DNA of 64,000 bases from Methylophaga sp. 41_12_T18 (GTDB taxonomy: Bacteria; Pseudomonadota; Gammaproteobacteria; Nitrosococcales; Methylophagaceae). Numbering within the stretch: position 1 is the first letter of the stretch; each line of letters begins with the position of its first letter. The notes under the pieces were generated by a model that did no database searches, was not told the DNA's origin, and saw only the letters and a program-made list of their open reading frames with translations. This document shows, piece after piece, positions 4,235 to 6,713 of this stretch. A program made the translations under genes and the position numbers. Location: the NCBI GenBank assembly GCA_002163115.1, contig MAAI01000024.1, positions 1 through 64,000 on the forward strand. Direction: 5' to 3'.

Positions 4235-5631
4235 GCACATCACAACTAGAATTTGATGTCGTTGTTATTGGTAGTGGCCCTGCGGGACAAAAGTCTTCTA
4301 TTCAAGCTGCAAAAATAGGTCAAAAAGTGGCCATTATCGAGCGTGATAGCCTATTTGGCGGTGCTTGTGTACATCGAGGCACTATTCCATCTAAAACACT
4401 AAGAGAAAACGCACTGCGTGTAAAACACATGCGTCAAAATGCGGCTCTAGTAGACTTTAAACTAGGCGAAGATACTGAAATGGCGACCTTAGTTGATCGC
4501 CTTGAATATGTATTAAAAGCCCATGATAAATATATGCGTGAGCAGATTGCTCGTAATGATATTGAGCGTATTCATGGCCGTGCTAGCTTTGTTGATAGTC
4601 ATACCGTGAAAGTCACTAAAGTTAACGGTGAAGAATTAGAGCTGAAGACTAAAAAGGTGATCATTGCTGCCGGCTCCTATCCACGTAACCCAGATAATAT
4701 TCCTATTGATCACGAACACCTGTTAGATAGCGACTCGATTTTGTCGATGTTATATTTGCCTGCGAGTTTAACCGTCTTGGGTGGCGGCGTTATTGCCAGT
4801 GAGTACGCATCCATATTCCAAGCCTTGGGCGTCAAGGTAACGATGATTGATAAATACCCAACACCATTAGGGTTTCTAGATCAAGATATGACCGATACCT
4901 TTGTACAAGCCTTTGAAAAAATGGGCGGTACCTGGATGGGTAAACAAAAAGTTGAAAAAGTTTACTGGGATGGCATTAGTGAAGTAGTGACTGAATGTGC
5001 CGATGGCACAGTGGTGAAAAGTCAGAAGCTACTTTGTGCGGCCGGCCGGATTGCTAACGTGGGTGATTTGAAATTAGAAAATGCGGGCTTGGCTCTCAAT
5101 GACCGTGGCTTAATCACCGTTGATGAAGACCTATGTACCAGTGTCGAAAATATCTATGCTGCGGGTGACGTCATTGGTCCGCCATCTTTAGCGTCAGCAT
5201 CAATGGAACAAGGTCGTCGCGCTGCTTGTAATGCCTTTGATATTCCTTTGGGTGATATGAGTAAACTGATTCCAGCAGGCATTTTCTCGATTCCAGAATT
5301 ATCATCAGTGGGCCTGACTGAAACACAAGCTCGAGAAAAACATGGTGATGTCATCGTTGGGCGGGCAAAATTTGAAGAAGTAGCACGTGGTCAAATTTCA
5401 GGCAATACCGAAGGCATGTTGAAGATTGTTGCAGATGGCCAAGGTAAGAAAATACTCGGTGTGATGTTAGTCGGTGAAAGCTCTACAGAAGTGGTACATA
5501 TCGGTCATATGGCAATGTTATGCAATGCCGAAGTAGACATATTTGTTGAAAGTACCTTTAACTTTCCAACATTGGCTGAAGCATATCGTATTGCTGCTTT
5601 AGAAATATTAGCAAAACGACCACAAGACTAA
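4231..5631 (+). CDS. sthA: Soluble pyridine nucleotide transhydrogenase SthA
   Basis: A FAD-containing flavoprotein that exchanges reducing equivalents between NADPH and NAD, usually to drain excess NADPH. At 466 residues it has exactly the E. coli length. The N-terminal FAD Rossmann motif is VIGSGPAG (residues 12-19). The active-site region CVHRGTIPSK (46-55) has one cysteine and a threonine where lipoamide dehydrogenases have a second cysteine. This is the normal SthA pattern, not damage. The NAD(P) fold motif is LGGGVIASEYAS, and the second FAD motif is YAAGDVIGPP. The C-terminal dimerisation domain is complete. It overlaps the HDOD gene and is followed 3 nt later by ydfG. Confidence 0.96.
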   Translation: MSTSQLEFDVVVIGSGPAGQKSSIQAAKIGQKVAIIERDSLFGGACVHRGTIPSKTLRENALRVKHMRQNAALVDFKLGEDTEMATLVDRLEYVLKAHDKYMREQIARNDIERIHGRASFVDSHTVKVTKVNGEELELKTKKVIIAAGSYPRNPDNIPIDHEHLLDSDSILSMLYLPASLTVLGGGVIASEYASIFQALGVKVTMIDKYPTPLGFLDQDMTDTFVQAFEKMGGTWMGKQKVEKVYWDGISEVVTECADGTVVKSQKLLCAAGRIANVGDLKLENAGLALNDRGLITVDEDLCTSVENIYAAGDVIGPPSLASASMEQGRRAACNAFDIPLGDMSKLIPAGIFSIPELSSVGLTETQAREKHGDVIVGRAKFEEVARGQISGNTEGMLKIVADGQGKKILGVMLVGESSTEVVHIGHMAMLCNAEVDIFVESTFNFPTLAEAYRIAALEILAKRPQD

Positions 5632-5634
5632 ACT

Positions 5635-6390
5635 ATGAAAACTATATTAATAACCGGTGCTACATCTGGCTTCGGTGCTGCAATGGCACGTTTGTTTGCC
5701 AACAATAATTGGCAATTGATTATTACTGGTCGTCGGCAACAACGCTTAGATGAGTTACAGCAAGAACTGGGTGGCCCCGACAAGGTGCATACCTGTTGTT
5801 TTGATATCTCAGACAGGGCAGCTGTAGAACAGGCGATAGATACCTTACCAGCAGCCTTTGCTGATATTGATGTATTGGTGAATAACGCTGGCTTAGCTTT
5901 AGGCTTAGAACCTGCCGATAAAACCGATCTTGATGACTGGGAAAAAATGGTAGATACCAATATCAAAGGGCTGATGTATTGCACCCGCTATGTATTACCG
6001 AAAATGCGTGAACGCAAACAAGGTTATGTATTGAATATTGGCTCTGTCGCCGGTAACTGGCCTTATCCTGGTGGCAATGTCTATGGTGCAACCAAAGCAT
6101 TTGTGAAGCAGCTGTCGTTATCTTTACGTGCTGATTTATTAGGTACTAACATCAGAGTCACCAATATCGAACCGGGTATTGCTGAAACTGAATTCTCACT
6201 GGTGCGATTTAAAGACAATGAAGCGGCGGCGGGTGATGTATATCAAAATACCAAAGCCTTAGCTGCAGAGGATATTGCCAATACCGTGTGGTGGTTGGTG
6301 AATACCCCCGAGCATGTCAATGTCACTACGATGGAAGTGATGCCTACTCAGCAGGCGACGGGGCCGTTGGCTATTTATCGTGGTGAGTAA
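5635..6390 (+). CDS. ydfG: NADP-dependent 3-hydroxy acid dehydrogenase, YdfG type
   Basis: A 251-residue short-chain dehydrogenase close to E. coli YdfG, which oxidises serine/allo-threonine and 3-hydroxy acids and reduces malonic semialdehyde with NADP(H). Cofactor motif TGATSGFG is at residues 7-14 and TGRRQQRL follows beta-2, with arginines that fit NADP preference. NNAG, the catalytic Ser in NIGSVAGNWPY and the YGATK Tyr/Lys pair are all present. The E. coli-like segments NAGLALGLEP and WWLVNTPEHVNV support the subfamily. It follows sthA by 3 nt, giving an HDOD-sthA-ydfG operon that joins two NADP(H)-handling enzymes to a signalling protein. Confidence 0.92.
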   Translation: MKTILITGATSGFGAAMARLFANNNWQLIITGRRQQRLDELQQELGGPDKVHTCCFDISDRAAVEQAIDTLPAAFADIDVLVNNAGLALGLEPADKTDLDDWEKMVDTNIKGLMYCTRYVLPKMRERKQGYVLNIGSVAGNWPYPGGNVYGATKAFVKQLSLSLRADLLGTNIRVTNIEPGIAETEFSLVRFKDNEAAAGDVYQNTKALAAEDIANTVWWLVNTPEHVNVTTMEVMPTQQATGPLAIYRGE

Positions 6391-6449
6391 TAAATTTTCA
6401 TACGACTCTGAATATTTTTACTGTCTAATAATTATTACATGACTTGTCG

Positions 6450-6713
6450 ATGGGATTAGATACAGTAGAGTTTGTCATAATAATTGAAAAGGAGTTTGGG
6501 CTTTCAATTCCTGACGAAGGTCTCGAACATTTAGGTGTTGTAGGCGATTTAGTTGTTTATGTAACAAATGCTTGTGAGATGCAAAATGGAATAAATCTTG
6601 AGTTCGAGTTGGTTTATGAAAATCTAAAAAGTATTCTGCATAATGATTATGGTATTCCTATCAAACAAATTAACCTAAAGTCACATGTAGTCAAAGATTT
6701 AGGTATGGATTAA
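6450..6713 (+). CDS. Acyl-carrier-protein-like ORF with permuted or incomplete ACP layout
   Basis: An 87-residue product that begins MGLDTVEFVIIIEKEFGL, resembling ACP helix II onward but without the phosphopantetheine serine (DT where DS is expected). It continues SIPDE and a helix-III-like GDLVVYVTNA. After a linker, the C-terminus reads like ACP helix I and loop (LKSILHNDYGI ... VVKDLGMD). It stops exactly where the modified serine would normally follow. The order is therefore second half then first half of an ACP. I chose ATG 6450, since family members begin MGLDTVE; a TTG at 6444 is the alternative. Neither has a clear ribosome site. The ORF is AT-rich, stands alone, and no acyltransferase is adjacent. 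It could be a diverged functional carrier or a decayed tandem. Confidence 0.55.
   Translation: MGLDTVEFVIIIEKEFGLSIPDEGLEHLGVVGDLVVYVTNACEMQNGINLEFELVYENLKSILHNDYGIPIKQINLKSHVVKDLGMD

Follow-up and report, generated by a model that had tools for sequence, protein, structure and literature searches.

The window analyzed here is a stretch of 64,000 nucleotides from contig MAAI01000024.1 of Methylophaga sp. 41_12_T18. On its forward strand an open reading frame was found at 6450..6713, exactly where the sequence-only reading had placed it. It runs from an ATG at 6450 to a stop codon at 6711-6713 and encodes P0001, a permuted, serine-less protein of 87 aa that resembles acyl carrier proteins (ACPs). 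Homologues start at the same Met, and an alternative in-frame TTG start at 6444 would make P0001 longer by two residues. No obvious ribosome-binding site was found upstream of 6450; among the matches listed, ribosome-binding motifs preceded 27 of 94 family genes versus 13 of 94 control positions, which is a weak difference. The promoter scan was at chance level (3 found versus 2.7 expected). The region 80-895 of the window, about 5.5 kb upstream, resembles what we take to be the 3' part of a gene for a FabB-type ketoacyl-ACP synthase, probably by coincidence.

The codon of Gly2 (6453..6455) falls at the position of ACP Ser36, the 4'-phosphopantetheine serine, since the profile alignment sets GLDTVE under SLDTVE. 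Residues 3-40 (6456..6569) correspond to the second half of ACP with helices II-III-IV, and residues 53-87 (6606..6710) to its first half, comprising helix I and loop I up to Asp35. Both halves were delimited by matches to ACP models and PDB chains and by the helices predicted by AlphaFold2 (3-16, 22-25 and 31-46 in the former, 52-67 in the latter). The linker from ACP helix IV to helix I occupies residues 41-52 (6570..6605), which is where an extra domain sits in long relatives. The DLGMD end, with the stop codon directly after it (6696..6713), was identified as conserved by comparing the C-terminal motifs of the relatives. All of these features lie on the forward strand.

Residues 3-40 matched ACP models just past the serine (TIGR00517 38-75 and NF002148 39-76, E 3e-12), while residues 53-87 matched the N-terminal part of such models (NF004533, E 6.7e-6). 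In a phmmer search of PDB chains, residues 3-39 aligned with ACP 39-75 and residues 55-87 with ACP 5-37, the C-terminal half being weak by itself (i-Evalue 79-93). These matches agree with the earlier proposals that the N-terminus is ACP from just past the phosphopantetheine site onward and that the C-terminus is an ACP start stopping short of the serine. A family profile placed its positions 3-42 on residues 36-75 of the ACP chain 2ehs (i-Evalue 3.6e-13) and its positions 56-87 on residues 3-34 (i-Evalue 1.2e-6). A profile of the short forms aligned with a single ACP over 42 columns (score 98.5) and with a doubled, head-to-tail ACP over 80 continuous columns (score 144.8). When the halves were restored to ACP order, 78 columns aligned with a single ACP (score 146.1), indicating that the homology spans the whole domain. 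With the columns of the C-terminal half shuffled, the doubled-ACP score reached a mean of 97.8 and a maximum of 102.0 in 20 trials, and this control ruled out a chance resemblance to ACP.

The helix order in the P0001 family is II-III-IV-I, versus I-II-III-IV in ACP. P0001 is a circularly permuted ACP composed of helices II-III-IV, a linker, helix I and the DLGMD end, and it is cut exactly at the 4'-phosphopantetheine serine. Compared with AcpP (TIGR00517, PRK00982; PF00550), both halves are alike residue by residue, including Asp31, Asp35, Asp38, Glu41, Glu47 and Phe50; the differences are that the halves are swapped, that the chain is cut at Ser36 and that Gly replaces the serine. P0001 scored below the cut-offs of PF00550 (18.6 vs 20.8 bits) and TIGR00517 (44.2 vs 70.45 bits), and some long relatives scored above that of PF00550, e.g., L044 with 40.7 bits. 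Among the matches listed, every one of the 31 short and 55 long members matched ACP models at E<=0.001.

The residue aligned to Ser36 is Gly2 (MGLDTVE vs DSLDTVE). The sequence-only reading had put Thr in place of the serine, which is incorrect, as Thr5 corresponds to ACP Thr39. Because the serine is replaced by Gly, ordinary loading with 4'-phosphopantetheine is impossible. Thus, the suggestion of a circularly permuted carrier held for the permutation, which is supported by the doubled-ACP alignment, the shuffle control and the conserved ends, but not for the carrier. Two copies read head to tail, which had been expected to make up one complete ACP, would give the junction DLGMD-M-GLDTVE, with an extra Met and no serine.

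Gly occupied the serine site in all aligned members of a set whose search pattern had fixed this Gly. Because the original DNA pattern had fixed the Met-Gly start, searches leaving codon 2 free were also run. The window protein was the only member in 299 Pseudomonadota genomes, and in 148 Planctomycetota genomes the only copy was that of the search-centre genome itself. Besides the search-centre genome's own copy in each case, one more was found in 99 Bacteroidota genomes, seven in 240 Verrucomicrobiota genomes (one of them, L215, with a damaged end), and two by a profile search of 59 Planctomycetota genomes. All 10 new members from searches leaving codon 2 free started with Met-Gly, and hits with any other codon 2 all fell outside the family; some of the 10 may repeat genomes of the DNA-pattern search (the start of L226 is the same as that of L093). 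An in-frame stop was present within 30 codons upstream of the start in 73 of 93 members among the matches listed.

The DNA pattern, a degenerate form of the start Met-Gly-Leu-Asp-x-Val-Glu, was scanned over the genomes of 84,980 species and gave at least 117 loci. Together with the window, L021 and L024, 120 pattern-bearing sequences were obtained, of which 103 were ACP-like, 96 of those being complete; the other 17 were not ACP-like or were cut off and were set aside. According to the record titles of the matches listed, the loci span Planctomycetota, Verrucomicrobia, Bacteroidota and Alpha-, Beta- and Gammaproteobacteria, and further loci belonged to Geobacteraceae, Acidobacteria, Gemmatimonadetes, Armatimonadetes, Lentisphaerae, Sumerlaeota and others. 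A search of 95 genomes detected one full-length relative, from the same class as the window (G063), with 32% identity over residues 1-87. This relative (L002:1501-1770) has both conserved ends and an in-frame TAG at codon 27, which may reflect a pseudogene, a sequencing error or recoding. A plasmid search detected one relative, from Gemmatirosa, with 30.8% identity over the whole query. One long member (L024:6537-7232) lies on an IMG/VR viral contig.

The search pattern left the C-terminus unconstrained, so the conservation of this end was not built in. The equivalent of Asp31 lay exactly five residues before the stop in 84 of 94 complete ORFs longer than 40 aa, and the end motif was present in 88 of 94 complete members versus 30 of 528 neighbouring ORFs (both among the matches listed). 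Two of the six members without the terminal motif position were just one residue longer. The C-terminal Asp was found in 30 of the 31 motif-bearing short forms among the matches listed. P0001 itself has the Met-Gly-Leu-Asp start and a stop right after the Asp35 equivalent, the features that define the family. The DLGMD-stop boundary, singled out earlier for comparison among homologues, is therefore conserved across phyla; the reading of P0001 as the edge of a decayed tandem array is contradicted, as its homologues share the DLGxD-stop boundary, and the conserved ends also rule out a truncated pseudogene for the family.

Several sequences depart from this arrangement. L115, L141, L142 and L045 have ACP-like starts and ends without the motif and are perhaps frameshifts or damaged copies. 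The short alignment excluded L032, L052, L110, L045 and L115, and the long alignment excluded L060, L141 and L142. Two ORFs from Planctomycetota, G768:C1:6744123-6744434 (L191) and G855:C27:1197-1703, match the long-family profile only C-terminally or in its middle part and are possibly split or unpermuted relatives. In long relatives from sphingomonad and Fibrella plasmids (L146:5962-6654, L147:5962-6654, L149 near 4971-5651 and L148:4917-5615), the cut is displaced upstream by a few residues, the Met-Gly start is absent and parts of the motif are missing. The sphingomonad plasmids are conjugative or mobilizable (e.g., pUT1, where the gene lies beside IS elements), and the Fibrella relative is also on a plasmid.

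AlphaFold2 modelled the window protein with a pLDDT of 89.1 and a pTM of 0.76 from a 30-row alignment, predicting with good confidence that a single P0001 chain forms a complete four-helix unit. In Foldseek, the short model matched ACP halves at E near 1 (2qnw, 41 columns, 1.3 A). HAD phosphatase cap domains ranked higher (best rows, E 0.11), and these were judged to reflect a common helical arrangement. The VIA rows for the short model and ACPs gave Z up to 6.8 at low identity, in a comparison that follows chain order and is blind to permutation.

Short members consist of a single permuted ACP unit. In the long forms, helices II-III-IV are followed by a second ACP-like domain, which is degenerate and bears a hydrophobic two-helix hairpin, and helix I comes last. 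The long member L044 (225 aa) was modelled with a pLDDT of 90.7 and a pTM of 0.69; its hydrophobic hairpin was read from the sequence, and the model has helices at 114-134 and 140-162. The part of this model at about 50-185, hairpin included and with about 75 residues aligned, matched whole ACPs, and the first 24 rows were all carrier proteins. The best match of the inner domain was 6lvu (Z 8.6, 3.1 A over 75 residues), although Z values of helical bundles call for caution. Sequence homology of this domain to ACP was not detected by hhalign (probability 1.7%), and structural comparison is the sole support for the likeness. Tandem ACPs such as the prodigiosin doublet 5y08 and the mupirocin didomain 2l22, both of which were in the structural match list of the long form, likewise have two ACP-like units per chain. 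However, in the long form one permuted unit is wrapped round the other, the outer unit has no serine, and the inner unit is degenerate and bears the hydrophobic hairpin. The layout of the long form is what would be expected if a head-to-tail ACP array had been cut at the serine in both the first and the last copy, and a tandem origin of the P0001 family is plausible.

Short and long forms interleaved in the phylogenetic tree, with 13 changes for the short and 14 for the long form, and starred branches force at least five of each. Gain or loss of the inner domain has therefore probably occurred again and again. In this tree the ACP group needed three changes and one was still compatible, the 77 columns being too few for the question of a single origin of the permutants. 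The window protein grouped with a protein from Kangiella (L083; 100/80). The remaining 56 genomes of the window's genus and family yielded no full-length match. In the sister genome G001 a flanking gene was kept at 89% identity, and the P0001 gene was absent beside it. The G+C content of the P0001 gene was 32.2% versus 41.3% for the window, at about the 2nd percentile, with 24.1% at the third codon position. A recent horizontal acquisition of the gene is likely.

Gene neighbourhoods were compared by clustering 569 ORFs around 100 loci among the matches listed, after dropping ORFs of 40 aa or less. Beyond synteny in Hymenobacter no neighbouring gene recurred, the maximum being 5 of the 100 loci, so that the neighbourhoods suggest no pathway in which a partner might be sought. 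The source genome also encodes an ordinary ACP (G000:C5), and ACP-like partial matches were present in the 14 member genomes searched.

That a widespread family of ACP-like proteins exists whose chain is circularly permuted, with the cut at the prosthetic-group serine and Gly in its place, is in our judgment nearly certain. As to its function, the best overall explanation is that these serine-less proteins act as docking mimics of ACP, which we favour tentatively and a little short of even confidence. The P0001 family would carry no 4'-phosphopantetheine and would work as a free-standing mimic. Its acidic recognition face around helix II would be kept and would dock on ACP-recognising enzymes while delivering no substrate, so that the docked mimic might act as a competitor, a sensor or an adaptor; the long forms might dock at the membrane. 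The docking step taken by itself we consider possible but rather doubtful. The mimic is favoured because the serine is missing while the positions of the acidic face, which are those contacting ACP partners, are largely kept. Among the matches listed, at positions that the search left unconstrained, Asp31 was kept in 96% of short and 92% of long forms, Asp35 in 96% and only 58%, Glu47 in 100% of both, and Asp56 in 80% and 85%. Asp38 and Glu41 were also kept, but in that set the search pattern had fixed them. Against the mimic stand the lack of a recurring neighbour gene, the poorer retention of Asp35 in long forms, the shifted ends of the sphingomonad and Fibrella plasmid relatives, and the drift in helices III and IV of residues that hardly vary among the compared ACPs (Glu60 51% in short and 45% in long forms, Ile62 29% in short forms).

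The conserved acidic residues could instead be needed for folding or to bind metal. A protein that senses lipids or metals, its four-helix bundle retaining the pocket and the acidic metal sites of ACP and binding free acyl chains or a divalent metal without ACP partners, would account for the ACP-like core, for the acidic positions 31, 35, 38, 47 and 56 and for the hydrophobic hairpin of the long forms, and we regard it as unlikely, though the least so of the alternatives. The terminal Gly might also be the working group. Methionine aminopeptidase removes an initiator Met that precedes Gly, and the alpha-amine of Gly2, at the ACP active-site position, would then take the place of the serine oxygen and become acylated or aminoacylated, so that the protein would be a carrier that dispenses with phosphopantetheine. 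The constancy of Met-Gly when codon 2 was left free fits this reading, as any residue other than Ser would suffice to abolish loading. However, no acyltransferase or ligase recurred as a neighbour at the 100 loci among the matches listed, the plasmid relatives from sphingomonads and Fibrella have this arrangement although they do not start with Met-Gly, and Gly may be just sterically required where helix II begins; we therefore consider this carrier improbable. That the family represents a new type of carrier or of lipidated regulator, with the N-terminal Gly amine beside the C-terminal carboxylate replacing the phosphopantetheine arm and the chain ends forming the active site, appears slightly more improbable still.

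Breaks inside a flexible loop can favour domain swapping, and P0001 might accordingly work as a dimer or a hetero-pair, e.g., by exchanging helix I with a second copy or with an ordinary ACP. This is very unlikely, as the monomer is predicted to be complete and even a pair would have no serine. The least probable reading is a truncated or decaying pseudogene or a chance resemblance. The low G+C content, the lack of an obvious ribosome-binding site at 6450 and the internal TAG of the same-class relative would suit it, but the ORF is intact with the family invariants, both ends are conserved, and the doubled-ACP alignment withstood the shuffle control.

ACP is among the most studied small proteins. 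In Pfam and NCBIfam, no model describes the P0001 family, and the relevant matches were all to ordinary ACP models. No report of a natural permuted ACP was found in the searched PMC literature, outside which most subscription papers lie. DUF1493 is presumably a serine-less ACP-like family that is unpermuted; its Pfam model gave no match to P0001 or the relatives searched. The presence of a serine-less permuted family in many phyla shows that the ACP scaffold can serve a conserved role for which no prosthetic group is needed, and it also means that acyl carriage is impossible for the products of many genes that match ACP profiles.
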